DNA of 64,000 bases from Sphagnum magellanicum (taxonomy: Eukaryota > Streptophyta > Sphagnopsida > Sphagnales > Sphagnaceae). The stretch spans positions 24,650,949 through 24,714,948 of the forward strand of contig CM038912.1 in the NCBI GenBank assembly GCA_021904315.1, in the 5' to 3' direction. The position numbers and the translations under genes were made by a program. Below the pieces are notes generated by a model. It searched no databases. It worked only from the letters and a program-made list of their open reading frames with translations, and was not told the origin of the DNA. Shown here piece by piece: positions 3,450-64,000 of the stretch (within the stretch, counting starts at the first letter, position 1; every line of letters begins with the position of its first letter).

Positions 3450-6400
3450 TTTTCTCTGTAGTTCCAATCTCCTCCCCCATTAATTCAGTTTGTGGTTCGA
3501 TATCTAGATGGTATCTTGGATATCTCTTCTTCTAATGTTAGAAAAGCCTCCACCTTTTCCTATTCCTAAATTCCCTCTACTTTTTCTTTTTTTTGACCCC
3601 CTCCTCTAAAGTCCTATGGTATCTCTAGTTATACCTCCTCCTCCTCCTGAACTCTTCCACTTCTGAGGTTTTGTGATTCTTCAATCTGTATTTCCTCCTC
3701 TTAAGTTGTCCCACTAAGCCATGCTTTTGTTTCTTCATCTTGGTCCGATACCTCTGTATTTGTTGGATTACCACAAATGAAATCTGGAAAATTCTTTTGA
3801 TAAGCTTCCAACTTGTACCTCATAATTCTTTCATGCTAGATTCTTCTCCAACTCCTTTGTAAAATATTCCTTTGCAACCTCCCACCATTCCTCAAATTCT
3901 ACTTTAGAGTCCTTCATCTTGTTCATCTTCATCAGTGTATAATATTACAACATTTGTTCATAATCCTTTAATCTTTTCTTGATACAATTTGGATCCAAAT
4001 TCTTCCTTTGTTCTTATGCCTTTTCCAATTGTGCTTGCAAGTGCTACAAAGTTTTTTGATACTCCTTCTTGTCCTCCATGAACTGCTCTCTTTCTACCTT
4101 TGTTGTCTTTCTTCTAAGCTCCTTAAACTACAACAGAGACACATTTTTTAGATTTATCAATTCCAAATTTATCAAAACATTTTTATTTATTTATTTTTTT
4201 TAGTCAGTGCTTTCATCCGACTATCCAAAGCCTCCTGTTCTTTTTTATGAAAAAATAGTGCTTATGTCCACTTCATGTCTATGGTTTCCCATATTTCAAC
4301 CTTTTATTTTAAATTATGTAATTTTTCATCCTACGACTTCAACCATGATGTGCTACCCTTGAGCTCCTCATTCTCATCTTATAGTTTTTTAATGAGTACT
4401 ATATTTTTATGCTCAACTTCTACCTTATTCTTCCTCTAGATTTCCACATTATTCTTATACCTGACACGCTCCCAAGTTCCTAGTTAAACCCAAGTTGGGT
4501 TTAAGTTACTCAACAACGGAATTGTGAAAAACTCGGAGCACGCTCCCAGCTCTCAGCACCAAAAGGGGTAGAGGGGCATGCTGAAGCTCTGGGATGGGAT
4601 TAGGTAGAGTGACAAGCTTTAGTTAATTACTTGAACTTGCATCAAACCAACCAACAAGTTGGTTAGTTCACTTTCTGGAGCACCTTTGGTGTTAGGACAA
4701 GCCACAGGCAACTCTAGACTCACATGACTCACCACGGCTCGGACTCGGGGGAAGCCACCACCTTCCCCCATATAGTATACTTTGTGTCTCTCTGCGGCAC
4801 CCACATCCAAATGGCTTTTTGTCCTGGGACTCCCAAGGAGGAGTCTCGAAACTATCCCAGTTTGGACTTTTGGGACTTTGTGAGGTCATAACTCTTTTCT
4901 CAAACCTTCGATTGGAATGAGGTCTAAAGCAAACTTGTAGCTCTCCTCGAGAGCTTTCCAATGGTGTATCGCATTCCACCTGCACACATCGAGGTCGGGT
5001 CGATTTTTAACTTTTAGTGGTCGGAAGTCAAACTGCCAGTTTGACTCCTGTCCCTACTTTTTTTCATAACTTGTGCTGTAGATGTTCAAATGGCCCATGC
5101 GACCCATTTTCGACATCTACACTTTGATAGCTTTCCAATAATATAAAGAACACCCTAATGCAAGGTGTTTTGACCCCTGCATCGAACTATGAAGTTTCGG
5201 GAGTCCAAGAAAACTCCCAAGTCCCAATTTCGGGAGTGTAAGTTTCATCCTCACACTCTTTCAAAGTAGGGTTGTGACAATATCCCTTTTGGAACTTTCT
5301 TTCCTTATCCAATTCCTCCTATAACATTGCCTTCTCCTTCTCCCTTGTAACCAATATGTTCTTCAAAGTGTTTACTTCCAGGGTCAAATTCCCCATATTC
5401 AGACTCACAATTACCATGGTTTGAAATAACTCAACTGCTTTATATGCTTTCATTATTTTTGTAACTACCTCCTCAACTGACTTTGGTGTATTTGGCTATG
5501 TTATAGGATCTCCAGATCCTTCTGCATATGATCCTAACTCTTATACCATTATTCTCCCCAATTCAAATTCAAATGGGAATCCTTCTGTAGGTTCTAGCCT
5601 ACTAGGTGGTACCTACAATTCTGTTGGTCTAAACTTTTCAAAAGTAGGTTGTGTTGCCACTCTTTCCGTCTATAATTTAATAGCTTGTAGACCTTCCTAT
5701 GTTTGTTATTGTTGTTGCTGCAAATGATGTTGTAAATGTTGAAAATGTTTTGGACTTCCAATGGTCTCCATCCAATCTTCACATACATCCCCTTCAAAGT
5801 GTAGATGTTCCTCACCCTTTGGAAACCTTATGTCATGCTCCCTCTTAACTCCTTGCTTTGCTCTTAACTGCCTTTCCTATGGTGATGTCATTTGTGGTAT
5901 TTTCTACCTTTGTTCACTCGGCTATCTCTCATGTGGAGATGTCATCTATGGTACTGCTATAATTTTTCTAACTACCTAGACCATTGGTGGAACTGCCCTT
6001 ACCACTATTGGTACTACAAATGGTTCCATTCTACCCCTCATCATTTTTTGTGCCCTCAATTTTGTGTTCTCATATTCCCTCTTCACTCTTAAGCCTAAGG
6101 CTCGTCCTTCCTCAATTCTATTCTTCCTCTTGAAAGCACTTTTTGGAAAGTCTGCTACAATTTTTTTTCTATTCTCTAATGTTGTCTACATCTTTTCCCT
6201 AGTTTTAACCTTGGTTGATGGTTTCTTTGGATTGTCCTTTTGATGCACAAACAAATATTGAAATATTTTTGCTAATACAAAAGCAAATTGACAAGTATCT
6301 TTCTTATCCCCCTTATTCTCCTTAACATACTTATACCACCTATCTAGTTCACTACACAAATTATTGAACATAATTTGTGCCCAATCTACATGTTGCCCCT

Positions 6401-13334: not shown

Positions 13335-14452
13335 GACAACACTTTTCTTAGGTAGTTAAGGAAGGTACATTAATTAGCTGGGCAATTAAGAGGTCAGTGC
13401 ACTAACTATGGTCTAGGTAAATATATACACTAAAATTAAGTCAAAGTAGGTAACTAGGTAAATAACTATTAATAGCCTATATATGTAAGTAACTTACCTT
13501 AATTTACATATCTATGCTATTTATAATCTCCTTAAACCACCTACATACTTAAGTTAAGTGTGTATATACATATATATAAGTAGTTTAGTATGGATTTATG
13601 TATACCTATGCATATAAGTAACCTAATTTAAGTATATAAGTAGGCTAAAAGGGTTTTAAACAATCTATTTGGATGCAAAAATGTAAATGTCTCATCCATT
13701 TGACCTAGTATTCTTTCATCCATCCTAAAATAATATTACCAAAATAGAAGTACAAATGACTTGTGATGTAGCCATGTTGCTTGGTAGTTGTATGATGTTT
13801 CATGGTGTCAAATTTTCAATCAATGTATGACAATAGGTCAACTAGGAAGTTTGTTGATGCCAAAAATATTTTAGAGGTGGCCCCATAGTTGAAGATTACT
13901 TTCAACTAAATATCAAATTACCTGGGGAGATCGCTTCCATATTATTTTCCATGACATGTAGAAAAATATAGATTGTAACTTATTGAAATATGTATAATTT
14001 ATTTACATATAAATAAGGTGCAAATAATTTATTATAAAATAATACTCATAATATACTCAATATATTTTAAAATATAATTTAAATATCCAAGTTTTTTACA
14101 ACAAACTAAAAAATGCCCTTTTATTTAATGTGATTCTTAAAATATACAAAAAGTGACCTCCATGGTACAAATTAATACGCAAATTGACTTACTTGGTAAT
14201 CACATGAAATTTTTGTAAATATTAGAAAATATGGACATGGAACATAGTTGGAAAGAACATGCAATTGAATAAAAGTTGGTTAAAAAAAGGGTATTTTCTC
14301 ACAATGATACTGTAATTGGATTTTTTTACAATCATCATTTTGTTAAATTGAAAGTGATGAATGTTTACAACCTTTTTTTAAAATTCCATTCACACATAAA
14401 ACATTGAGAATATTTTTTTTATAGGGTTTGCGAGGCAACTTCTATTCTTTAA

Positions 14453-15361
14453 TGATGCACTCCTAAGCTCATTAATATATTCAAATGTGAGTCCAAGGTG
14501 AACACAGTGGAAGAATGAAGAGTTGGGGTACGCTCCTTGATTCGCAACATTTCAAGGGTAGAAAGGCGTGCTGGAGCTCTAGGATAAGGATTAGGATGAA
14601 TGACAAGCAAATCAATTACTCACACGGACCTGCACAAACCAAACAACAAGTTGGTTAGTGCATAGTTGGAACATTTTTGGTGCATGGACGAACCAAGGAT
14701 AAACATTGACTCACAAGACTCACCATGGCTCGGACTTGGGGGAGGCCACCACCTTCCCCTTTATAGTATTTTCTGTGCCTGGTCACGGGCTAGCACCCAA
14801 ATGTCATTTTGTCCTGGGATTCCCAAGTTGGAAACCCAAAATTCCCTAAATTGGGACTTTCGCAATTTTGGGGGCCCATAATTCTTTTTTTAGACCTTCG
14901 ATTGAGGTGAGATCTAAAGCAAAGTTGTAGCCGTCATCGAGATTTTTCCAATGGTATGTGCAATGCCACCTACACGTAAGGAAATCAGGGCAATTCTTGA
15001 CTTTTAGTTGTTAAGAGTCAAATTTGACTCCCGGCCTTTCTTTTGGCCATAATTTATGTTTTAAGACCCAAATCGGTCATGCGAATGCATTTTAGACATT
15101 TGCGTTCCAAGAGCTTTTCAATGATATAAGGAACTTCTTAATCCAATGAATTTTGACCCCTACAATCGCCCTCTGAAGATTCAGGAGTCCATTGGGCCTC
15201 CAACTCCCAAAGTGGGAGTTCACTTGGGAGTGTGGGGGTTCATTCCCTCAGACTCTCTTGCATTCCCAGGTGCATGAAATGTGACTCCCGGGCTTCAATC
15301 TTGACCCACACCTTTGCAAGCCCTTGCCTTGGTTACGAGCCCCAAGGTTAGGGTTGCGACA
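14453..15361 (+). mobile_element. Solo-LTR-like element, copy B
   Basis: This 909-bp insert has ends TGATGCAC...GTTGCGACA. It is flanked by a perfect 5-bp TTTAA duplication (14,448-14,452 and 15,362-15,366). The matching position in the second ~7-kb repeat, near 53,457, is an intact empty site with a single TTTAA. It is homologous to copies A and C. The motif CCCCTTTATAGTATTTTC near 14,756 corresponds to the TATA-like motif of copy A. No internal domains are present. It inserted after the ~7-kb block duplicated. Confidence 0.85.
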
Positions 15362-16385
15362 TTTAATGTCTTTCACATAATAGAGCAAAGATATTATGCT
15401 TACCCTTTAAGAGTGGGATGGATGTGATGGCCATAAATGTAAGAACCTTCCCCCTCCTGCACCTTGTCCCCTCATCATTTATTTATATATAAGTTCATCG
15501 TAACGTTTACTTCATGTTTAATGATGGGTAGAGGTCACAAGTGCAAGACATTTGAAAAAAAAATGTCTAGACTTTGCTATGACCATCTTATGCCACTTGC
15601 AGCACCCTCACCTTAGTGTTTTACCCTACACATGGTCTTTAGTTATGTATTAAAAATTTCTTAAAACTAATTTTTCTTATGTAGATTGATATGTGCATTA
15701 GTAATAAAATGAATGCAATTGAATGTGTAAATTGTTATACTTTTACCTAGATTTGATTATAATTCCAATTGCAAGCATATTATTGTTTGAGTTTTAACTA
15801 ATTTCACATTTTAGTTTGTCTATTGAGTATAATTCAATGTTTGAGAAAAATGATTGATTATGGACATTTTAGTTGTCCTTCAATCTCATTTATTATTGTT
15901 ATTTGAGGTTCCATTTCATTTTCTCCACCTACTCACCTATTTTTTCTTTTTTAAATACATTCTAATTTCATTTATAATAAAAGATGTTGATTCTTGATGT
16001 GTTTGAATAATTACATGGGAATGACAAATTTATGTTAGTTGTGGAAGATGTGGTGTGCAAAGTGCAAATAAAAGTCTATTCATTTCAATATTTATGGAAT
16101 TATCAATGTTGAGATTTTCATTGCATAATGAATTTTATTAAATAGAGAGTTTCTTTTTTTCTAATGAGAAATAAATTGGCATATTTCAAATCATGTATTG
16201 TGACACTTTTAGGATCAAAGACCAATTCATTGAATGATAATCCTTAAAATTTATGAATGGTTTTTACTATTGTTAGCTGTACATGGAATTGGATTTTAGT
16301 TATGACATGTGATTGGGTTTTTCTAATTTTGATTTCTTCATTATTGGTCATATGTATTTCTAACAAGTGCAAAAATCTTTTATAG

Positions 16386-47907: not shown

Positions 47908-50302
47908 TGCAACACCAAAATGTGGCATTTATGACTACATTTATGACTACAAAACTAGTCAAAATTGCCATTTGTGACTAGCTACGACTACAAAATATTA
48001 TTTATATTAAAAATATATTTGTGTATGTAATAAAATTATGTACATTTATAAATTAATAAATTAATATTTAAATATATTTTGGAATATTTATTTTACAAAA
48101 TAATTATTCATTTAAGGTTTATTTATATATCGTATACATATGGTTTGTACATGAATTATATAATACATGAATCATATATACAATCATATATAACATTATT
48201 GTACTATATGTCATTATACATACCAGTGGTCAACATGATCAAACTAATCAACATGGTGAGAACAAGTATTAAACCTTGGACCTCCTTGAATTGGCCCAAG
48301 GACTCTGCCATCAACCTACCACATCACATTTGACACAATATTGTCACATAAAAACTTTATCATGTTCCAATGTTGGAATGTATAAAAATACAAAGTTTCA
48401 AATTTAATTTCTTTTCCAATACATATGAACATATGAATATGAATTATTAAACTTTGGAGCATAATCTACATATGTGGACCAACTAAAAATTCAAATAACA
48501 AATTTTGTACATAGAAAATCACTTTTGAATTTTAAAAATTTTAACATATTGGTTATGTTTTAATACATGATAAACTATAATAAATATATGTATAATTTGA
48601 ATATAAATTTTTTAATATCTTAAATTTATTTTCGAATTCTAAAATATGAATATAATATGATAATATTACTATATTATATGTATATATGTTATGTATCATA
48701 TGTATATAATATGCACATTTTATAATATACATATGCACATATACATATATTCAATATTTATATTTATATTTATTATATTGAAAATTAATTAATAGGATTG
48801 ATATTTAGATAAAAGGATTTACCAATTAATGTTATTATATTTAATATAATCCAACCACTTAACACAACATTATAATTGTACTCGTTTTTCATTATTTCAA
48901 ATTTTCATAATTTTAAATTTATTAAAATCTAAATATTTAATACAATACACACACATACATATGCAATGTTATATGTATATAAATATTTACTGAAATATGT
49001 TAAAAATATATACATAATAAATAAAAATTTAAAATTAAAATAAAAAAATAAAAATTATATTTAATATTTTTTTAAGAAGGTCATTATATATATATATATA
49101 TATATATATAATATCTTGTAAATTTATGAATCTTAAACCCAAAGATAAAATTGGTAAAACTTTGTTAAATTTGGTTTAAATAGCATGAAATTGTTTGAAT
49201 TATGTTTTTTTGTTATTAAAATAGGATATTTAAATTAAACTTGGTTAGATTAAAGCTAAAGTTCATTCATTTTGTTTAATTTTGGTTAAAGTAATATAAA
49301 TGAGGTTAAAGTAGGTTATTGTGGTTAAAATAGGATAAAGTTTTTAATATTTTGATAAATTTGGCTAAAACTTGGGTAAGTTTAGTTAAATGAAGATAAA
49401 ATTTTCTAAACTAAATGATTGTGGTTAAATTTGGTTAAACATAATAAAATTTTATTTAAATTTGATTAATTTTTGTTGAAATTGAATAAATTTTGTTAAA
49501 GCTAAAAAATAATTTTTAAAAATTTGGTTATGTATTTGGCTCAAATTTAATAAATTAGGTTAAACTTTGATACTGAAGTTAAATTAGGTTAAATTTGGTG
49601 AAATCAAGTTACACAAAAGCACTTAGGCTAAACATGGTTAATTAAACTTGGTTAAATTTGAAAATTTCTAGCAACTAAAGTTTTTTAATGTATTTTGTTG
49701 GAACTAGGGCCAACTAGGCTAAATTGAATTAATTAATCTAAATTTGGTTAAACTAAATGAAATTAACTTACATATGTTCAAATATGTTACATTAAGTTGA
49801 AATTTATGATTATTTATAATAAATTAGGTTATTTAAGATAAACTATATAAGCTACTCATGGTGAACTAAGCTTAAGTGGGTTAAATTAGGATTGGATTAA
49901 GTTAAAATAAATAAATTTAAATGAAAATAGGAATTGATTCATACTAAAGTAAGTTAAAATATATTAAACTAGGAATTATTTAAATTAGACTAAATTAAGG
50001 TAAATTAAGTTAAGTTAGGCTTCCAATACAAATTTGACCATGTTGATATGTATTTTTATTTTTTCTTGAAACTTGTTGAAACAAGGTTAAGTAATTATTT
50101 TAATATGGTTACATTAACCATGTAGTCATATTTGTGATCATAATTACCTCTAGTTGTAATAGTCATATTTGTAGTCATAGACTCATAATTATGACTATAG
50201 CCGTCAAAATGATTACGATTCAAGTCCACTTACAATCACCTGACTATTTTGGGCAATAGTTGCAACATGTCTTAATCATAGAAACCACATTTTGGCGTAG
50301 TG
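47908..50302. mobile_element. Non-autonomous CACTA-like element, copy 2
   Basis: Equivalent of 8,960-11,339. The right terminus, read inward on the minus strand, is CACTACGCCAAAATGTGG, closer to a canonical CACTA end than copy 1. The left end shares CCAAAATGTGG. CAT flanks both ends (47,905-47,907 and 50,303-50,305). The GGTTAAA-rich interior lies at about 49,130-50,040. Confidence 0.62.
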
Positions 50303-52212
50303 CATGCAACAAGCAAACGAGCAATGGAAGAACATGTGTGAACTGTGAACAAGGTAGAATCATGGTGATGGAGGTGTTTCAACATTAGTAAGGATTTGAT
50401 TCCTCAAAATGTGAATCCTTATTTGGCCACTATCTTGGTGGCATCTATTGCTTTTGGGTTGTTTTTTACTAATTTTTTTGATAAAAAAACATAAATTCTT
50501 GTGGTGAGTTCAATTTCTTGGCATACTGATAAAAGGCCATGCTATGGGTTTTTGCAGACTACGGTGACCTTATATGGAGATCACAATGGCAGTTTTTCAT
50601 GTATTCATGAAATACAAGAAAACAAATTAAATGAAATTATTTGAAATAATGAAAAAAAGGATTCATTTATTTAAAACTATAATAACAACCTTCCAAGAAT
50701 GGAAAAATCAAATCAAAATCATGGATAGTCAATAAGTAATGGACTTTTGAATTTTGCCCACACTTTTTGTCACAGTTGCAATACTCATGGATATGGACTT
50801 TTATCTTACAATGTGTTAGTCTTTATGTGTTTGAAACTTTGGGATATGGAATGAATTATGTTTAAGAAACTAAAGATCCATTGAATGAATTGAATGTGAT
50901 TTTAGTTTGTTATGTTATGGACTTTTTTAAATCCCAAAAATTGTAATAATTTTAAAAGCCCTTTTAAGGATTTAAAAAATATTATTTAAAAAAAATCTTT
51001 TGTGATTTAAAAAATATGTTTTATAACATCATGATTTCAAATTGGAAATGGAAAAAAAATTACTTTCATTATCATTCAAATATTCATATTTTAAGCCAAT
51101 TTTCAACTACACTAAAAAAGGACTTTGAAAAGGGACTTTAATCTGCCAAAATTGTGATACCCTAGTGTGTTTTTGCCCTATATAAGTCTTTTATACAAGA
51201 ATATTTCATAAAACAACATAACAAATGTCCCCAAGGTTTATATTTTTATATTGAATCAAATAAATACCTATAAAATCAAAGAATTGCAATTAATTGGTGG
51301 TCAATTTGTTCCAAAATATAAAGTTTATCCAATGTCAAAAATTCCACATAGGACTTCAAATTGTTTTAAGGTGAAGCTTGAAATATTTCTGAACATAACT
51401 TGATTAAATAGTTAACAGGGTTTCACACACACAATAATAGGATATGACATCCATGAATGTTTAAAAAGCAATTAATCATTCAAAAAAATATGTTTAAATA
51501 TATGGCAAGTGAACATTTAATACATTTAGAGAAAACCCCCATATTTGTAATTATGTTCTCAACTCATGTTAAATACAATTGCAATTCAAAATGAGCAATT
51601 ATAATTACATTAAAAGAATTGACAAGTATAAGTTTAAAACAACATTAAAATTGAAGATGACATCCATGTGTCAACACCACAACAATAGTCAATTTAATTG
51701 CAAATGACAATTACCATGATAATTGAGGGTTGCTTTCAATTGTACTTCATTAATGGATGAATTTCATTCATTGGCATTACATGACATCATCAAATTTCGA
51801 ATATGTCACAATTAAGCCCAATAGATGGTTCAATTAGTAGCTTAATGACATGTGGTGTTTCCACATCCATAGGCTACACCATGTCACACCGAGGCTAGGC
51901 CACCCCAACATAATGCTAGGTTAGGCAATGTGGCAAGTAAACTGGCCTAGACATAGGTCATCTAGGCAAGGTTACAAGGGACCTAAACTAGGCCCCAATA
52001 GAATATGTGGCACCTAGGTTACGCTTAGACCGAGGCCACATGGCACCTAAAGGCTATGTCTAGACTTACACCACCCATGTGCCACCTCACAAAGAAAAAT
52101 ATCCTATTTCATTTTGAATTGAACCTATATTGGTTCATCCCAATGACATATATAATATATTTTTTGGATGCTTGTAGTGCAATAATTTATATTGTTTACA
52201 AGTTTGAAATGA

Positions 52213-52265
52213 TGGCAAACAATATGGGACAAACTTTTGGGAAGGATAAACATTCCCATATGCCA
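52213..52265. repeat. Short hairpin related to the 310-435 palindrome, copy 2
   Basis: TGGCAAACAATATGGGA and TCCCATATGCCA form an imperfect inverted repeat, in the position equivalent to 13,282-13,334. The GGGACAAACTTTT word matches the perfect palindrome exactly. Confidence 0.5.
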
Positions 52266-54485
52266 TACAAAACTTTTCTTAGGTAGTTAGAATAGGTACA
52301 TTAATTAGGTAGGCAATTAAGAAGTTAGTGCACTAACTAGGTAGGAGGTCTAGGTAAATATATACACTAAAATTAAGTCAAAGTAGGAGTTATTTACAAT
52401 ATAACTAATATCTAGTTCCTTAGTTACACACTAATTAATGTATGTCATCTATAAGTAACTAGGTAAATAACTATTAATAGCCTAGATATGTAAGTAACTT
52501 CCCTTAATTTACATATCTAGGATATTTATAATCTCCTTAAACCACCTACGTATTTAGGTTAAGTGTGTATATACACACACATATATATAAGTAGTTTAGT
52601 ATGGATTTATGTATACCTATGCATATAAATAACGTAATTTAAATATATAAGTAGGCTAAAAGGGTTTAAAACAATCTATTTGGATGCAAAAATGTAAATG
52701 TCTCATCCATCTAACCTAGTATTCTTTCATCCATCCTAAAATAATATTACCAAAATAGAAGTACAAAATGACTTGTGATGTAGCCATGTTGCTTGGTAGT
52801 TGTATGACATTTCATGGTGTCATATTTTCAATCAATGTATGACAATAGGTCAACTAGGAAGTTTGTTGATGCCAAAAATGTTTTAGAGGTGGCCCCATAG
52901 TTGAAGATTACTTTCAACTAAATATCAAATTACATGGGGAGATTGCTTCCATATTATTCTCCATGACATGTAGAAAATTATAGGTTGCAACTTATTGAAA
53001 TATGTATAATTTATTTACATATAAATAATGTGCAAATAATTCATTATAAAATACTCATAATATACCTAATATATTTTTAAATATAATTTAAATATCCAAT
53101 TTTTTTACAACAAACTAAAAAATGCCCTTTTATTTAATGTGATTCTTAAAATATACAAAGAGTGACCTCCCTGGTACAAATTAATAGGCAAATCGACTTA
53201 CTTGGTAATCACATGAAATTTTTGTAAATATTAGAAAATATGGACTTGGAACATAATTGTAAACAACATGCAATTGAAAAAAAATTGGTTAAAAAAGGGG
53301 TATTTTCTCACAATGATAATGTAATTTGATTTTTTTACAATCATCATTTTGTTAAATTGAAAGTGATGAATGTTTACAACCTTTTTTTAAAATTCCATTC
53401 ACACATAAAACATTGGGAGAATATTTTTTGTAGGGTTTGCAAGGCAACTTCTATCCTTTAATGTCTTTCATATAATAGAGCAAGGATATTATGCCTACCT
53501 CTTAAGAGTGGGATGGATGTTATATATGGCCACAAGTAAGTGTAAACCTTCCCCCTCCTACACCTTGTCCCCTCATCATCTATTTACATATAAGTTCATC
53601 ATAACGTTTGCTTCATGTTTTATGATGGGTAGAGTTCACAAGTGCAAGAGATTTGAAAAAAAAGTGTCTAGACTTTGCTATGACCATCTTATGCCACTTG
53701 CAGTGCCCTCACCTTAGCGTTTTACCTTACACACGGTCTTCATTTACGTATTAAAAAATTCTTAAAACTAGTTTTTCGTATCTAGAATGATATGTGCATT
53801 AGTAATTAAATGAATGCAATTGAATGTGTAAATTGTTATACTTTTACCTAGATTTGATTATAATTCCAATTGCAAGCATATTATTGTTTAAGTTTTAACT
53901 AATTTCACATTTTAGTTTGTCTATTGAGTACAATTCAATGTTTGAGAGAAAGGATTGATTATGAACATTTTAGTTGTCCTTCAATTTCATTTATTGTTGT
54001 TATTTGAGGTTCCATTTCATTTTCTCCACCCACTAACCTATTTTTTCTTTTTTAAATGCATACTAATTTCATTTATAATAAAAGATGTTGATGTTTGATG
54101 TGTTTGAATAATTACATGGGAATGACAAATTTATGTTAGTTGTGGAAGATGTGGTGTGCAAAGTGCAATTAAAAGTCTATTCATTTCAATATTTACGGAA
54201 CTATCAATGTTGAAATTTTCATTGCATAATGAATTTTATTGAATAGAGTGTTTCGTTTTTCCTAGTGAGAAATAAACTAGCATATTTCAAATCATGTATT
54301 GTGACACTTTTAGGATCAAAGACCAATTCATTGAATGATAATCTTTGAGATTTATGAACAGTTTTTACTATTGTTAGTTGTACATGGAATTGGATTTTAG
54401 TTATGACATGTGATTGAGTTTTTCTAATTTTGATTTCTTCATTATTGGTCATATATATTTCTAACATGTGTAAAAATCTTTTATA

Positions 54486-55370
54486 TAAAGATGACTAGAT
54501 TTTCCTTCTATTATTCTTCCAATGCTAGAATTTTGGAAATTTACTCATATTATTGTCTTATAGGAGTATGTTGTTGCTAGTTCAAAGATTCGTAAAGATT
54601 CAATCCTATTTCCTTAGTGTGTTTTTTGGCCCTTTCTAGGGACAAAATATTTCAAATGCTCCTTCCAAATGTGTAAGGTTGCCATTGGTCCTTTCCACAA
54701 AGTGGAAGAATTCGTAAGGTTGTCATTGGTTACTTCCAAATTTTAGAAGGGACCAAAACTTAATCATTCTTTAAGGATACAATTTCTTTTCTTTAATGCC
54801 CAATTTCTTTTCCTTAAGGCTAGTTTTCTTTCCAAACCCCTAGCATTATTTAGCATATGTTTTTTCTTTACAAAAAATTCTATGCCAAAAAGAAATTAAA
54901 TGAAATAATTTTTACAAAATAAATGTCAACTAATTACTAAATTCCATCAAAATTTTAAAAACTGAAATTCAGAACTTTTTAATAAAAAGACACCATCTCA
55001 TAAACATGTCTGCAAATTTCAACTTGGGAATTCAAAAAACCATAGCCAAAGTTCAAGATAGAAAAATACACCATTTCTAGAATATAATCTCCAAATTTCA
55101 TGTGAGAAATCAAAAACCCATGTCCAAAGTTCAAATTGTAAAATTGTCTCAAAATACAAAAAACCTAAAGGCCAATGCTAAAAGTATGAAGTTGTAATTA
55201 GGAATACACCTCGAGGGACAAAAAACCATAAGCTCAATGATGAATTTATGAAGCCATAATTAGAAATACATCTAAGAATTAAAAAAACTAGAAACTCAAT
55301 GATCACATTATGAAGTCATCATAATAATCAAAAATTGAAATCCAAAGAAGAAAGAGAATCAAGGTGGTAA
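54486..55370. other. Intergenic DNA with small tandem duplications
   Basis: No gene is recognised. Small imperfect tandem pairs are visible: AAGGTTG.CATTGGT at about 54,676 and 54,717, a ~75-bp pair at about 55,000-55,140 (AAATTTCA..T.GGAATTCAAAAA-like), and a ~65-bp pair at about 55,185-55,315 (AATTAG.AATACA.CT). Confidence 0.5.
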
Positions 55371-55375
55371 ATTCT

Positions 55376-56028
55376 TCAAACCCGGTGCTCATGAAGTAGA
55401 CCCCAGGTCCACCACGTAGTTAATTGTAATTGGACAATTTTGCAAGTTGCTGAAAACATGACTGGAATTGGTATTGGAATTAACAATCGAGAGTGGCAGA
55501 AAACCATTAATAGACTCCAACTACTCTCTGTGTTTGCGAATTTTGGTCTCAAAATACTAATTCCTGAAATCATCATCAAAAGGCTCATAGGACATTTCTG
55601 ATTTGTGGACATGTACAACAATTTTATCATGGGAAAATTGGTTGCAACAACATGATCAAAAGCAAGAACAACTTATTGTGAAATTGGAACATCATCTGTA
55701 GTAAACCAATTGGAGTAGGATTAATGTATCCAGAAGCTTCAGCAGGAGTATTATGAAAAGATGCTACAACAACATAGATTTGTCCATGATCATAGTCTTG
55801 CAAGAAACAGAAACAGAAATCGAAAAAAAATTTAAATGTAAGCAAATTCCAAATTAATGGATTAATCAACAAAAAAATAGAAGAAAAATACATACTTTAA
55901 CCTTTGCATACAAACTTTTTTCCTCCTTGAAAGCCTTGTCGTAATGAAGTAGACAACCTTCCTTCAACTCGCCACTAATGATGCGTTGGAAAGCATAATC
56001 ACGCAAATGCTTGTCCATTTTATTGTAC
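55376..56028 (-). pseudogene. Unrecognised split coding remnant
   Basis: Minus-strand exon-like blocks look genuinely protein-derived. Block 1 (56,028-55,896) follows a poly-pyrimidine CAG acceptor-like site and encodes MDKHLRDYAFQRIISGEL... ending YAKVK before a GTATGT donor-like site. Block 2 starts near 55,796 after TTGCAAG and encodes DYDHGQIYVVVASFHNT and YINPTPIG, then DDVPISQ and VVLAFDHVV in a shifted frame. Further traces (KSEMSYEPFDDDF, NCPITINYVVDLG) continue to about 55,400 with stops. It is broken by stops and at least one frameshift. I cannot name the family. It lies downstream of the tyrosine-recombinase remnant on the same strand and may or may not belong with it. Confidence 0.5.
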
Positions 56029-57299
56029 CTGGAAAAAAAAAAGTTAAAAAAAAAGGTAGAAACATGTCAAGACAAAAACAAAATAAAATTACAAAATTGG
56101 AATCAAGTGCAAACTTGGAAAATAAAAAACAAAATACTTGGAAATTTTCTTAAAAGAAAAGAAATATTGATTTCCTATATGAATTGGAATCTTTATGTCC
56201 TATTATGATTGGACAGGAAGTCAATCGGATATTTTTCTCATGTGAACACAACAAGTTTTTAGGGTTTTGGTTTTGTTTTGAATGGCCATCAACTTTCTGC
56301 ATGCTAACGATGAAAATTATTCCATCACTGTTTGTTAGCGGGTGTAATGACTGTTTCAAGGAGACTTGTGAGCTTGGGTAGGAAGCTTTGTTTGTTTATG
56401 CATTATGTGGAACAGATCAATAACAAGCAATGGATGGCTAAAAAAACTACAACATTGAATGGAGGTATAGGAAGTAGGATGGTGGAAGGCAGGATAAGAA
56501 GGAAAATTTGAGAACAATGGAAGCATGTCTTTCTTCTTTCTTGATTTTGTTTTCAAAAGATGATAGGTGGAACTTGTTGAGATTTGTAGTTGTTGCATAT
56601 GATCTCTAGTGACTACACTATAGCAAGTGGTATTTTCTTATTAATAATAGATTCTATAAGGGGTTGATGTTGAGGGTTGATGACAAACAGAAAGAAGTTC
56701 GAGCTGTAGATACAACACATGTAGAAGGATAAGTATACATGTTGAATGAGGACCTTGTTTGAACCTTTCTTTAATCCATATAGTAGGGCAGGTACATGAG
56801 TGAGTGCTAGAAGCCTTAGTGGGGTGTCCTTGGGTTGGGCAGAACGAGAGTAAAGAGGAACAAAAGTGGGAAGTTAATAGAAATCTATCCATAGCCAATT
56901 TATGCACAAAAATTTATCTTTCTTGAGTGGTTGTAAATCAACCTAGTATGTGTCATTAATATTTTGGCCCATACTTAGAAATCATGATGTTTCTAAGGTT
57001 GGGTCAATTGTTCATTTGCATTATTGCATTTGTAGGAAAAAGGTTAATAGCTCATATGGACTGACTGAACACTGAAGGTTTTGACCTCAAGCCATACCTC
57101 ATTAAATTTTGGACTCATAATGTGTGAATTTGTACCTGGCATCAAACTGATTGCTACCACTATAACAAGTTAGAAAAGATTACTAGGTATGTGCCAATTG
57201 GAGATTCACACCAAAATGTTGAATTTTGTTCTAATAGAATGGTAACACCAAAAGATTCTACTAGTGTTGGGTTGGTAGTCTCAAAGGTATAAGTTGTAA
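56029..57299. other. Unassigned DNA between two minus-strand remnants
   Basis: Open frames at 56,150-56,381 overlap on both strands and at 56,356-56,907 lie on the minus strand, but none has family features that I recognise. No tandem repeats or element boundaries were seen. Confidence 0.4.
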
Positions 57300-57309
57300 C
57301 TAGTTCCTA

Positions 57310-59088
57310 GGATTTGTATCTCTACTGTGAGTTTTTTGTGCCCATAAGGTTTTCTTTATACACTATGACCTTGGTTACATTATGACCTCCATTCCATATT
57401 CCCAAGGAACCATGGCTTCTTCCATGTGGGGTATACCCACACTTTTACATGTCTTGTTGGACAAAACATTTTTTTTCAGTTCAGGAAAATCCATGGTCAA
57501 TCTATAAACAATTAAATGCAATTGGTTTCGACCTATTAGGGCAACACTAAACCAAATGTCATCAAACAATCTCCATTTCAATTTAGAATGTAGGAACATG
57601 GGATGTGGCATAAGCTTGCCTGGAGGCCAATCAATGGGGCGATGTCTTGCCATTTCCATGAAAATGTCAATCACATCGAAAATAGGGTAGTCAATAGTTA
57701 GACAATGGTAATCGGCTAAACACCACATGACATCAATTCACCGGTTCTTTGAGACACCTTGACAAAGCGAAAAACACAACTAGTCAGAAGTTACAAAATA
57801 CCAAATTCCTCAAAATCAACATTCTTTAATTATTAACAACCCCAAATAAAAAAATTGAGCATACAAAAGTAATAGAATGGAAGGTTGAGGCCCGTAGGTG
57901 ATGTTGCTTGACAAATGGCTTAACCCAACATCTTTCTCTCCTCTTCAACTGACAAAACACCAATTTTTTGATTTTTTTCCAAGACCAACATTGGATGCAT
58001 GAAGCATCACTTCATCATCAGCGAATTTCACATGACGGTATTTGACATTAATGAAGATGTTGAAAGTATAGTAGGGGCATTCCTAGTTTCAACAACGAAT
58101 TACCTTTGCTTCTGCCGGATAAGCTTACCATTGGCTCTTATTAATGACTATATGCTACAAACACCACAAATAAAGAAATAAAATGCAGATTGTTACAACT
58201 TTTGAAGAGAGAAAAAATAAATAAAAAAGGCATCAAATTTATTGAAATTGATAAGAAAGCCAATGACAAACAACATATTTAAAAGAATAAAAGATGAAAA
58301 AACAACAAAAGAAAAATTAAAAATGAAAACAAGTTGAAATTTTCATTACTTGGTCAGAGGGTACAAAGACCCATCCTTCTTCGCAACTTTCAGAATAAAC
58401 ATTGCTAGCATGTCCACTAATTCTTTGATAGAATTTGGATCTTTTGATACATTTGTAATTGATCTTTTTGTGCCAAAACCACAAAACTTCTTCCATTTGT
58501 TAAAAACATTTTTTGCACAATTTTCACCAAATCTACTAGCCTTGTGACCTCCTTTAACATTCTCCAATTCTTTCACATCAACCTCTAGAATTTGACTCGT
58601 TGCAGAAACACCATCAATAGGCAATGGCACATGAACATTAGTAGTGGGGGCGACATGACTAGACTCATAAACTCTAGTCATGTCGCCCCCATTAATGACT
58701 AGGTTCAAAATTTGGAAATTCATCAACAAATGGATCAATAGACAACATCACCATAAACCTCAAGTTGTTAATAGACAAAAGAATCAAAGGACTACAAAAA
58801 TAAAAGAACATAGGGTTTGATTCAACCGCATTTAAGAATTAGAAGAGCATGTTCAGGGGATGGTGTAGCAAGTGCAGTTGCAAAAGATTGAAAATCAACA
58901 TGCATAAAAGATTGTGTATCAATAGATAAAGAAGAAGGTCGATCACTAAAAGGCTCACTAATGACAACCAAGGATGTCTATCTTAGTATAGATTTAGTCA
59001 ACATCTCACGAGAAAGGTCTAAAACATCATTGTAACATAACTTTTTAGAAGGAGATTCATCATTGCAACATTTTGCAAAAAGAGACAT
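57310..59088 (-). pseudogene. Crypton/DUF3504-like tyrosine-recombinase gene remnant
   Basis: Family role, if correct: a YR-type (Crypton or derived) DNA recombinase or DNA-binding protein. The start is ATG at 59,088 after a TTCTTACAG acceptor-like site (MSLFAKCCNDESPSKKL...). Next come DPFVDEFPNFEPS, then a 130-residue open stretch (58,738-58,346) with NKWKKFCGFGTKRSI and LAMFILKVAKKDGSLYP, matching the KKDG..YP pattern of DUF3504 domains. A GTAATG donor (58,349) and GTTTGTAG acceptor (58,155) join to SLIRANGKLIRQKQR, then FNIFINVKYRHVKFADD, GVLSVEEERKML and TGLNLPFYYFCMLNFF (to about 57,840). A 117-residue stretch (57,728-57,375) has PMFLHSKLKW, DDIWFSVALIGRN and LSNKTCKSVGI, resembling the catalytic C-terminus. 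Several stops (for example TAG before SLIRA and TGA in the N-terminal exon) and frameshifts make it a pseudogene. The assignment is from motif pattern only. Confidence 0.5.
58645..58691. repeat. 19-bp perfect hairpin inside the recombinase-like exon
   Basis: TGGGGGCGACATGACTAGA (58,645-58,663) and its exact reverse complement (58,673-58,691) are separated by 9 nt. It is unusually GC-rich for the area. It lies in the coding trace between the N-terminal and KKDG-containing parts of the recombinase-like gene and probably arose by local inverted duplication. Confidence 0.8.
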
Positions 59089-59099
59089 GGCTGTAAGAA

Positions 59100-59700
59100 T
59101 AAAGAACATGAAACAAAAATGATGACAATAAGACTACTAAGGACAAAAAGAAATGATGGAAACAAAACTAAGAAGGATAAAGGCAAAAACCTAAATGGCA
59201 TAAAAAAAAGGACGAAATGTTTTAGGGTGGAAAGTACAAGGACATACATCTTTAGGGGGAAAAAGAAAATGGAAAGAAAAAGGAATCGAGAAAGACAAAA
59301 GATAAAAGTGACGGAAAGAAACCGAAAATAAAATTGGTTTTTTATGTAGGAGAAGGCTTTTCCTTTAGGCCCTTTTGAATTTTTTGACACCTACCTTCAA
59401 CCTATTGGCCTTAGTATGTGCCTCAAAATCTAGAAGGGCTTAAAGGAGAAACCTTCTCCTATACCAAAACTTTCATTTACAAGACAATAAAATGTAATGC
59501 AATTTCCAACACAAAATCCAATAAACATTTTAAAAATATGAATGATGATGTGTGATCCTAATGGATCATCTTGAAGTTTGTAAGATGGGGGACATGAATG
59601 ATTAGGATACTAGTTGATGTGAAAGTGAATGTTGGGTAATGGGTTTGAGTAAAAAGATATTCATTATGTTTTGCATCTAGGTGTTTATATAATATAAAAC
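59100..59700. other. Purine-rich intergenic DNA
   Basis: From about 59,100 to 59,340 the plus strand is very purine-rich (AAAAGGA-like words), giving overlapping spurious frames on both strands. The CTTTAGGCCCTTTTG and CCTTCAACC region follows. No gene or element was recognised. The 5' untranslated part of the recombinase-like gene would lie at its left edge. Confidence 0.4.
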
Positions 59701-59704
59701 GAAT

Positions 59705-60245
59705 TTATTTTTGTTCATTGATAATATCATGAATTTATATATTCAATCTCCAATTGGAAGGGAGAATTTGGAAGGTAGGTTGGAAGGGGACCAAGTTACA
59801 CACTTGTGGTGCTGGATAATTAGCCCCACTAGGGCCAATGGGGATGCAAAATGTTCAAAAAATGAGAAACAATTTAGGTGGGACCAATGATGTGAATGTC
59901 ATCAGTTATGGAAGGGAAAACATAGGAGGTGAAGAGGCAAACAAAATTATGCAATGCTTGGAAATGAACATGGGAAAAAAAAAAAAAACCTTCCCAATGA
60001 TCACCATATCGTGTGCCCATGGAATAATGGATAATTGTGAATTTTTCCAAAGGAGAATGATGACTAAAGAATAGGGGGAACTGCATGGGATAAAAGTCTC
60101 AAACAAATGGGAATAACTAAACCAACTAGCCACCTCTTGCTTGGAGCTTTTGGAAAATGACCCTATGGGAGATTGTGTTGAAGGCATTTACAATGTCTAT
60201 GTGCAACACCACCCACTTAGGATGTACATCTAAAATTATTTTAAT
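59705..60245 (-). pseudogene. Non-LTR-type reverse-transcriptase fragment
   Basis: The minus strand encodes HPKWVVLHIDIVNAFNTISH, then PLFFSHHSPLEKFTII, SMGTRYGDHW (from the usual MGTRQGDPLG), ITDDIHIIGP (the degraded active-site segment) and KCVTWSPSNLP. The order and motifs match an RVT_1 reverse transcriptase of LINE-like plant elements. Stops and frameshifts occur, the usual YADD-type site reads ITDD, and the 5' and 3' parts are missing. No target duplication or poly-A tail was seen. It may be an isolated fragment. Confidence 0.7.
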
Positions 60246-60249
60246 ATTG

Positions 60250-62970
60250 TGCATCATGACCTCACAACCCCCTTTTAAGCACAACACCAAACTAATGAAC
60301 AAATAAACAAGTTAAAAATGTGTCATAAAATTAAAAGCACAAAGTTTTATTCATGCTGGTATAAAACCTCTTCCACTATGATTAGCCAAATGCCTTAAAA
60401 AGGCTTGGCCAAGGTTAAAAGTTTGAAAATTCCCAATGTTCAAATTATGCTCCTAAGGATATGCCTTATTGTTACATAAAAACACATTGGGAACAATTTT
60501 AAAAAGTTGTTGGCTAAGTCTTTAAGGTCAAATGAGTTTCAAAGATGTTCAATACCATGCCAAAGGGTTCACTGATTGAAAGATGAGACATATGGATGAG
60601 TGCTAATTTCAAAAAATCAAAGAAAGGTCCAAATTTATATTCAACTACAACTCCATTAAAAAAAAAAACCTATTGGTGACAAATTTAATGGGTGGAAGGC
60701 TTACAACTTGCAAACAATTTTAATTAATGCTAAAGGCAAGGCCATGAGTGTAAGGGCTTTAATAGTTCAAACATATTTTCCATCATGCTTTAAGGCTAAA
60801 ATTTGTCAACTTGTAATAAAAGAAAATATCCTAAGAGATACCTACTAACTTCCCATTCTTTGAATGAACGAATGAGAACTCGACGACAAAAGCTTGTGGA
60901 GCACATCACAAGTTCAAGAGCTACTCAAAGATTTCAGCCACAACACATCATTGTGCATTTTCACCAGGCCTATTGTCCGTTCCTCTCAAATTCTTCTTCT
61001 GCTCCTATTACCTAAACCCTATTACCCATATAACATCATTTAACTTCTCTTCTTGAATCAATTGCAAAATAAAAAACAAAGGCAGGAGCTTTGGCTAAGA
61101 TTAGGCGTTGTTGTCCAAAGGTTTGAACTAGAACGTTAATTCATGATTAGGGTTAGGAGCTCAATATCTTTTCCCGGAATTTTTACTTATTACCAAAGTG
61201 GCAATCACCATAGAAGATGTTGAAAAAGGGACAATCATCCTTAGAAATATTTAACCACATTTGGCTATAAACCATAAATAAAGTAAAATAAGTCATCCTT
61301 TGAAGTTCGATATCTACACAAATACTATGGTGATTTTGAATTTTGTTTATTCTCATTTTTGGCGAATTCCTACGAATAACACTTGCTTTGACAATCTAAT
61401 TTAGTAAATTAGTTTTGAGATCCCACTTCTAGAATTGGGTCAAAAGAGAGAGAGTTAAGTTTAACGATTGGCTAACAAGAGATAGGGGAGCCAAGTTCTC
61501 TAAAGGCTTTAAACAACCTTGCAAATTTTACCAAGGCTAGACAAAGCTTTGGTTGTAGCTTTGAATCCTCTATAAGAAATAATCTTAAAATTTTTTGCCC
61601 ATTATGCACACTTGAACACCATCACCAATATGAAAAGTGTGATTGACTTCAGAAAGGGTTAGGCTAAACTTGGCTAAGGCTGAAAATGACATATTTCAGC
61701 AAATTAAAGTTCTTTAGAAAAGACCAATCCAATCCCATGTATTTCCATGACCCTTTTATCAAGGACTATTTCCATTTATCCTTAGCATATTCACAAAGTT
61801 ATTTGAAGTTTACCACTTCAATATCCTTTTATGTTAAACTAGTCTTTGACCATATCCCACATGTGGTTTGAAGTCATGTTTTTCAATGTCCCAAATATTA
61901 ATCATTTGTTACATGCCATTGGTATTAAAGAACATGACATCTTTCAATTGACCATATGAACATGCTCCTTTGAAATGTGAATTCCACCATATATTTTGCT
62001 GCATAATGGGGTAGAAAGAATTAGGTTTTTCAAAGTATAGTCTCTTAACCATCTTCTTCCATGCCCATCCAATGTGAACCCAAATAATAGAATTTGTGCA
62101 TTAATTCTACTCCTTAAGAAAACTTCAAAACAAATTGGTATGTCATTTCTTGGGAGAAGACTTGAAATTAACTAATTTATAACATAGGAAAATTTGGAAA
62201 TTGAACTCACTTAATTGGCATCCTAAGAAGACCCACTTAGTGAAAAGGGCTTCCAAAACATATTTTTACATGTCTCTAGCATAGCTCAAAACCACACAAC
62301 TTTGTTACTTGCATATGGCTCATTTTTAAGACAGGTCTCCCTACTGGCATGTGTTTGAATGCATGGGCATTTTCCCATTCTGTCAAGTATGCATTGAATC
62401 TTGCGGGGCACACCACTTGAAAAAGGTAAAACATACATGAATAAAAATATAGGGTGCAATATATGGGTTGTTGGGTAAAAATTATAAGTTAATTAGTTCA
62501 AAAATAGGGTTATGTATATTTTGAGAATAAAATACAATTAATATAAATTATGTGTAAATATTTAATATTATATATATATATTAAAAAACATGTGCATTAA
62601 AGACTTAAGGTATTAATTGTTAGTAGGGTCAATTATTGTGAAATAATGTTTTGATTAATTTGTGACTAATAAAAGTTTGTAAATTGTAGTTTTTTCATTT
62701 CAATTCTCCAAATAAAAGGTACAACAAGTAAATAAATTTGTGAAAATAATATCAATTGTTTTTGGTACATTCTTTCTTAACTATTGTTGTCATTGGTTTC
62801 AAAATCTAAATTGAAGTAAATATGTTTTTCCAATGCACTTGTAAGTACTTGAATTGGACCTTTAATTTTTCATAGTTTAAAAAGTAGATTTCAAGTACTT
62901 GGAAGTATATGAATGTTTTTTTGCAAATAATTGGTTTTTTTTTCCTAGTGGTCAATATTGATGTGGTGAA
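60250..62970. other. Unassigned AT-rich DNA
   Basis: I see no gene. Frames at 60,803-61,015 and 61,686-61,871 on the plus strand have no recognisable family features. Short AT-rich words dominate from about 62,440. Confidence 0.45.
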
Positions 62971-63201: not shown

Positions 63202-64000
63202 TGACGCGCTCCCAAGTCACGGGGTGAAACCCACTTGAGGGTCTCATAAAGTCAAATTGCGGAAATTGTGACTTAGTAGCACGCTCCCGGCTTCCAACTC
63301 TAGAAAGGGGTAGAGGGTTGAGTTGGGAGCCCAAGGATTAGACTAGGAAGAGGGACTAGTTGATCAAGCATGAATCTGCATCAAAACAAACCACCCACGT
63401 GGTTAGTTCACATTCCGGGACACCCTTGGGTGTTGGGACAAGCCACGGGCATTTTGGACCACGAGACACACCACGGTCCGGACTCGGGGGAAGCCACCAC
63501 CTTCCCCCATATAGTATTCTCTGCAGTTCGCCGCCGAGGCTACATCCAAATGGCACATTTTGTTGGGACTCCCGAAATGGAGTCCCGAAACTGTCCCGGC
63601 TAGACTCTCGAAACTTTGAACGGCCATAACTCCCGACTGCAGAGTCTGATCGCGACGAGGTCTAAATCAAAGTTGTAGCCCTCGTCAAGATTTTTCCAAC
63701 GCCATGTCGCACTCTCAATTTGGATGTCGGGAAGAGGTCGATTCCCGACTTTTAGTGGTCGGAAGTCAAACTGCCAGTTTGACTCCCGGCCCTTCTTTTA
63801 CCCATAACTTGGGCTACAGATGTCCAAATGACCAATGCGAGGAAATTTTCGATATCTACGTTTTGAGACCTTTTCAATGACACCAAGAACACCCCAATGC
63901 AAGGTGGTTTGGGCCTTGATGTCAAGCTTTGAACATTCGGGAGTCCCGGAGGACTCCAAATCCCCAACTTTGCAAGTGTTGGGCTTTACCCCCACACTTG
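63202..64000 (+). mobile_element. Solo-LTR-like element, copy C (cut by window end)
   Basis: It begins TGACGCGCTCCCAAGTCACG and is homologous to copies A and B, including the CCCCATATAGTATTCTC TATA-like motif near 63,507 and the CGGGAGTCC words. The right end is outside the window, so solo LTR versus complete element cannot be decided. The preceding 5 bp are CAATC. Its higher GC content and lower decay suggest that it is the youngest of the three. Confidence 0.7.

Follow-up and report, generated by a model that had tools for sequence, protein, structure and literature searches.

A dead family of probable Crypton-like tyrosine recombinase transposons in the moss Sphagnum magellanicum

Does a moss genome carry transposons of the Crypton kind, and what remains of them? 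The question is raised by a 64,000-nucleotide stretch of the Sphagnum magellanicum genome (contig CM038912.1, here C6:24650949-24714948; hereafter the window). A first-pass annotation had recognised there, on the minus strand, blocks in DUF3504/Crypton order, and had proposed a tyrosine recombinase (YR) relic at 57310-59088, possibly a dead copy of a domesticated gene family. The blocks are present in that order, in exons at 58597-58349 and 58147-57381. They are part of a longer structure: window 54592-59464 (minus strand) is a dead transposon copy of 4873 bp with four decayed exons. Judging from sequence comparison, the family to which it belongs is very probably an old DNA transposon of several subfamilies, now dead, which was moved by its own Crypton/DUF3504-type YR. 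It is called Crypton-like, and not Crypton, because the described Cryptons have no inverted ends.

Relatives of the window protein are abundant in the genome (438,994,042 bases in 31 contigs). A search with the broken protein, written with X at the breaks, gave at least 142 matches (117 of 487 candidates scored), which merge into at least 91 places on 19 contigs; a later search with the family sequence (E <= 1e-5) gave at least 116 matches (93 of 946 candidates scored). Comparison with five loci (L032-L036) defined four conserved blocks, two of them past the limits first annotated. In the extent originally proposed, exons 1 and 2 stand, an exon reaching up to 59088 is unsupported, and exons 3 and 4 lie past the 3' limit. 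The 65 copies read in detail are the better matches among the 91 places. They were read with a custom frameshift-tolerant profile aligner, 25 as a first set and 40 further loci mostly fetched without exons 1 and 4. With the family profile, exon 2 was found in 65/65 copies. Its scores, all 682 or higher, exceed chance, for the reverse strands of this DNA reach 182 at most. Exon 3 was found in 60 of the 65. Among the first 25 copies, exons 1 to 4 were recovered in 17, 25, 23 and 18, respectively, at profile thresholds of 200, 450, 130 and 150 (best reverse-strand scores 54, 177, 52 and 69).

Intron 2 splits a codon (..TATGGCAA/GTAAGT .. TTGTAG/GTATAAC). Both flanks could be placed in 53 copies, with an intervening gap of 68-907 nt (median 124). 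Of these copies, 32 retain the donor GT and 33 the acceptor AG, the most frequent changes being G to A. Intron 2 is thereby confirmed as a constant feature of the family. In-frame stops number 4 to 13 in every exon-2 copy (65/65), and only 2 copies are free of frameshifts; the window copy was rightly described as dead (Table 1). The search for intact paralogs that had been recommended found none among the scored genome matches.

The stops coincide with positions at which Arg or Gln is encoded elsewhere in the family. Among the first 25 copies, columns with TGA hold 22.7% Arg (background 3.8%), and those with TAA and TAG hold 40% and 37% Gln (background 3%). In the same copies CpG stands at 0.32 of expectation; across the 65, C-to-T and G-to-A changes amount to 15% per site versus 1.2-5.5% for other changes. 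Such decay removes the arginine codons on which YR profiles depend, so that profile libraries can miss such elements. Ancestral columns were inferred from the 65 copies on a star tree, allowing for the C-to-T bias. In the resulting decay-aware family sequence the active-site columns read, in order, R, K, K, R, H and Y, which we take to be the YR residues from their order and spacing and from known YR motifs. At the box I Arg, 62 copies show 21 Arg, 20 Lys and 5 TGG, and the Lys between the boxes is found in 58/65. At the box II Arg, where CGA is favoured over Gln by 39.6 log units, the 62 copies include CGA in 7, AGA in 9, CAA in 16 and TGA in 8, that is, Arg in 16. The His column holds His in 53/59 copies, and the Tyr, present in 52/57, lies nine residues past it, just inside exon 3, across intron 2. 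The R, R and Y of the Crypton tetrad are present in the inferred sequence; the raw copies are decayed.

Profile searches point in the same direction. The raw pieces of the window copy, for which a Pfam check had been suggested, gave no match up to E 10, and five raw exon-1 pieces gave no family match. Raw fragments matched DUF3504 in 3 of 33 cases (best E 0.042) and, in a second scan, in 5 of 55 (best E 0.029); in the latter, DUF3504 was the only family matched by more than one fragment, and three other families were matched by one fragment each at slightly lower E (0.017-0.028). The majority family sequence matched DUF3504 only (E 0.018), as did the decay-aware full-length sequence (E 1.2e-5, 25.8 bits, profile positions 2-160 of 162). 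The catalytic part of the latter reached E 3e-6 and 27.8 bits with DUF3504 (cut-off 29.7 bits), the next family standing at E 0.27. For the N-terminal part QRICH1 was the sole match, at E 2.8e-4 and 21.4 bits (cut-off 30.8 bits). Exact reversed decoys gave E 0.084 and 0.062. A PHROG scan up to E 10 returned the integrase phrog_1 alone (E 0.097), and an NCBIfam scan of the majority sequence returned nothing. The proposal of a Crypton/DUF3504-like relic in a land plant is thus supported at the level of the family, by the inferred sequence, and not by the single copy in the window. It is extremely improbable that this is an unrelated plant protein family resembling YRs by chance, as might be argued from the lack of structure support and of any Pfam match above cut-off for raw copies: two independent Pfam models match in the right order, the decoys are two to four orders weaker, and the active-site columns are correctly ordered with the Tyr at His+9.

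The sole DUF3504 match in a genome search, on C13, was below cut-off and had a noise-level score with the family profile; it was rejected. A search of the genome for PF00589 gave none. Among viral contigs, 5 stretches fitted a pattern and none was a relative.

Is this recombinase part of a mobile element? The left end of the window copy is common to six genomic contexts with differing outer flanks (the window with C15A; C3 with C10; C17; C1; and two places on C4). Nine of 11 dispersed matches to the right-end part stop at window 54605-54586 (query 796-815), and two stop earlier. Moreover, in five loci (two on C4 and one each on C2, C7 and C1) the left and right pieces adjoin directly; by their sequence these loci are internally deleted derivatives. 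Three of them show a readable outer left end and four a clear right terminus; the two that show both measure 679 and 651 bp. The derivatives fix the ends of the window copy at 59464 and 54592. By motif alone, its right end was no better than in shuffles.

The ends have an internal organisation. In subfamily 1, GTAAAGAACCGGTYGAATTTTTT lies close to the left end, and the right end carries its inverse. The two arms agree at 20 of 23 positions in the C12 copy, which has both, and at 21, 18 and 21 of 23 within three derivatives; between subfamilies agreement is 16-19 of 23, with positions 15-16 fixed differently (subfamily 1 being taken as a typed consensus). These counts give only partial support to a clear covariation of the arms between subfamilies. 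In C1, C17 and C3/C10, a palindrome of about 115 bp lies outside the left arm. The window copy has the same type of hairpin from 59464, its arms (59339-59394 and 59414-59469) being 77% complementary, after which comes a decayed arm. In a third group (C9, C15 and C19) the end position is the same, with CTTTAC in two members and TTTTAC in one; a C18 member stops earlier. The 3' stopping points of the copies fall within about 15 bp of a single position. In the genome, the subfamily 1 arm pattern gives 22 matches versus 5 in the control, and its 10 matches with at most one mismatch comprise 9 element ends and 1 site (C2) in another repeat. The pattern of the window subfamily gives 27 versus 19 and is not distinct overall; among its 10 matches with at most one mismatch, 7 are derivative ends (two each on C2, C4 and C7, one on C1), and the others are the C15A right end, a site on C16 inside a dispersed right-end match, and a site on C10.

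Two further features were observed. In subfamily 1 there is a second palindrome, of about 65 bp, about 75 bp inward of the right ends, for example at C4:15966079-15966143. A different dispersed repeat, at L091-L093, L095-L097 and L099, starts like GTAAAGAACCAGTAGAATTTTTC.. and resembles the element arm over about 20 nt.

The pattern of divergence between copies is also that of a transposon. In distant pairs of exon-2 copies (<58% identity; 360 of the 2,080 pairs among 65 copies), mismatches at the three codon positions are 0.402/0.318/0.577, versus 0.222/0.200/0.187 in close pairs (78-86% identity, 33 pairs). The third-position excess in the former and the even mismatches in the latter show that the protein was selected along deep lines and that copies decayed neutrally after landing. 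In the subfamily comprising two C1 copies, C4, C12 and C17, introns (mismatch 0.13-0.20) and the 3' part (0.14-0.16) are conserved to the same degree as exons (0.12-0.21). The 5' part has diverged more, with mismatches of 0.25-0.32, rising to 0.46-0.49 far upstream.

These features bear directly on the suggestion of a domesticated family. If the copies were remains of a domesticated host gene, this would account for the introns, the four-exon structure and the presence of several copies within duplicated blocks. The moss sequences resemble the domesticated DUF3504 genes (KCTD1, KIAA1958, ZMYM2/3/4, QRICH1, WOC) in a DUF3504-like domain and in the QRICH1-domain-like N-terminal segment that precedes it. 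They differ in being multicopy and decayed, in having transposon ends and in keeping most active-site residues in the inferred sequence, where, apart from His-to-Lys, the catalytic-residue loss typical of the domesticated genes is not seen. With defined ends, deleted derivatives, neutral tips, selected deep branches and no intact copy among 65, domestication is very unlikely, and the copies behave as a transposon.

Which enzyme moved it? The YR is the sole recognisable mobility enzyme in the one near full-length copy scanned, that on C12: no reverse transcriptase (RT) or transposase was found in 2 kb 5' of exon 1 (six frames) or 1.2 kb 3' of exon 4 (three forward frames), the scan of these flanking parts giving three chance-level matches to other families (E 0.11-0.32). 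No clear target-site duplication of the DDE type is seen: at their assigned ends, five elements have flank matches of 0-1 nt. When shifts of up to 3 nt are allowed, the matches are 1, 2, 2, 3 and 5 nt, and 20 mismatched control pairs give 1-4.

Inverted terminal arms, which described Cryptons are reported to lack (PMC3212892), together with a possible 5-nt direct repeat at shifted ends of one C4 derivative, could point to a DDE transposon that carried the YR gene as a passenger and has since lost its transposase. There is a precedent for the combination: MarCry-1_FO, a Mariner-Crypton fusion, is likewise a YR element with inverted ends. However, the DDE transposase and TA duplications of MarCry-1_FO were not found in the moss family, nor was any DDE family found in the scanned parts of the C12 copy; the four remaining elements match by 1-3 nt when shifted, within the control range; and the arms flank the YR gene in both subfamilies in which both arms were read. 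A passenger origin is accordingly considered unlikely.

DIRS/Ngaro elements also carry a YR, with inverted or split repeats, and the family might be made of fragments of such a retrotransposon. An RVT_1-like fragment is present in the window at 60126-60311 (minus strand, E 0.0042). It lies outside the YR element, beyond the left end at 59464, in a block not common to L032-L036. With a Pfam scan of a single copy, that on C12, showing no RT, introns kept in the copies and DUF3504 and QRICH1 as the significant family matches, there is little chance that a retrotransposon of this type was the source.

A transposon moved by its own Crypton/DUF3504-type YR thus remains the favoured reading, and a pathway can be proposed. 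The recombinase would bind the inverted arms, and the element would be cut out as a circle, with the right arm placed against the left hairpin and the inner left arm. The circle junction would then form one long palindrome, and rejoining elsewhere would proceed by YR exchange, without target duplication of the DDE type. The family would subsequently have died and decayed as methylated DNA.

Several points weigh against this reading. Circle formation, site choice and catalysis are inferred steps. The terminal inverted arms of 20-23 bp and the hairpin depart from the lack of inverted repeats in described Cryptons, and the HxxR position, His in the Crypton tetrad, is Lys in 49/63 copies. A Lys at this position is also known from SSV-type integrases. 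The C12 copy has no left hairpin, and the recount of arm agreement and the shift test both slightly weaken the case. The 5-nt repeat of the C4 derivative (ATTGT, ends shifted by 2 and 1 nt) exceeds the control maximum of 4, and may have arisen by chance, as a duplication or as a direct repeat like those of Cryptons. No raw copy exceeds a curated Pfam cut-off; the significant matches need the inferred sequence, and lie under the cut-offs for both DUF3504 and QRICH1. PDB searches returned nothing for A1 and the inferred sequence, and for the majority sequence one hypothetical protein (E 0.57). Finally, two AlphaFold2 models were unusable (mean predicted local distance difference test scores 47 and 54).

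A more radical reading, which we hold only tentatively, is that these elements may constitute a separate order of plant YR transposons, neither classical Cryptons nor DDE elements with terminal inverted repeats (TIRs), whose ends are a hairpin plus inverted recombinase arms. The palindrome of right arm, hairpin and inner left arm would serve, as a cruciform, as the recombination site. Activity would have been long in the moss lineage, intron-bearing copies and short deleted derivatives spreading without DDE-type duplication.

Comparison with the described Cryptons (CryptonA/I/F/S; Kojima and Jurka 2011, PMC3212892) is informative in both directions. As presented there, they resemble the moss family in having a YR as sole recognisable enzyme, with a DUF3504-type domain that is a probable one in the moss, in their deleted non-autonomous derivatives and in their long-term presence with diverged copies. 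In contrast, the same account gives them no TIRs and 4-6-bp direct repeats or none, the 4-6-bp terminal repeats being those of fungal and stramenopile groups, whereas the moss family has 20-23-bp inverted arms and a 115-130-bp hairpin. The moss family also differs in its land-plant host, in the Lys for the HxxR His, in its own C-terminal extension (exons 3-4) and perhaps in its conserved introns. The hosts described in PMC3212892 are fungi, animals, oomycetes and a diatom, and a figure-legend list of suffixes includes 'Plants: CR' (Chlamydomonas). Cryptons are, according to a passage of PMC7385966, not described in Arabidopsis; neither 'crypton' nor 'transposable' occurs in the main text of PMC9946827, and passages of PMC11630846 and PMC9406493 name no plant Crypton. 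Among the titles and abstracts listed for the open-licence PMC literature, no paper on a land-plant Crypton was found; Repbase and Dfam lay outside this scope, and such elements may already have been catalogued there. With a large dead family in a moss, the range of this kind of YR transposon would be extended to land plants, and a recombination site open to testing would be at hand, together with clear ends and short deleted derivatives.

Plant genes of YR origin would also gain a candidate source in such a family. The ALOG genes of streptophytes are plant sequences with such an origin, which PMC3537659 traces to a DIRS1-type YR and to recruitment in the streptophyte lineage. In the same genome, ALOG is represented by five stop-free copies and one decayed match, separate from the moss family.

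The features of the window copy are collected in Table 1. The reading frame of the exon 1 profile core (58597-58349) is open. No convincing conserved coding sequence was found upstream of about 58657 in comparison with L032-L036, one weak match in the wrong frame extending to 58802. In the window copy the last codons of exon 2 (GH.....YGK in relatives) were not found ahead of the inserted repeat.

Table 1. Map of the dead transposon copy in the window (positions are those of the window)
Feature	Position	Strand	Remarks
Whole dead YR transposon copy	54592..59464	-	5' end 59464, 3' end 54592; shared ends and derivatives
Left terminal hairpin, starts GTATAGGAGAAGG	59349..59464	-	fold of 59467-59325: -59 kcal/mol
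Inner left arm	59324..59345	-	inverted relative of right terminus, decayed in window copy
22-bp inverted repeat, near-perfect, 9 nt between arms	58642..58694		within exon 1 of window copy
Exon 1, N-terminal core-binding-like, KKDGSLYP motif	58349..58657	-	profile core 58349-58597; L035 similarity from 58657
Intron 1	58148..58348	-	201 nt in window copy
Exon 2, catalytic YR part	57381..58147	-	6 in-frame stops, 4 frameshifts (earlier profile: 5)
Long terminal repeat (LTR)-like repeat inserted in element	about 56606..57364	-	36 further genome matches, several as pairs 7-10 kb apart
Exon 3, catalytic-tyrosine column (YN..DKHL)	55893..56030	-	starts after acceptor ..AG/GTACAAT
Exon 4, conserved C-terminal extension ending ..LQNCPITINYVVD	55401..55580	-	2 stops
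Right terminus GGAAATAGGATTGAATCTTTAC	54592..54613	-	dispersed-match stops and derivatives

The window copy and C15A share 48429-61386 (at least 13 kb) in pieces that are 86-90% alike, the LTR-like repeat included; this likeness is that of a duplicated block and not of two insertions. C15B shares window 60809-57426 in two pieces. The LTR-like repeat would have entered the window copy later, after the death and decay of the family. A second kind of LTR-like repeat is inserted in the C15A copy, and has three relatives in the window, at 4533-5207, 14451-15296 and 63278-63967. Past the right end of the element, a 586-bp stretch (window 53900-54485) shows 94% identity to window ~15799-16384 (C6:24666747-24667332).
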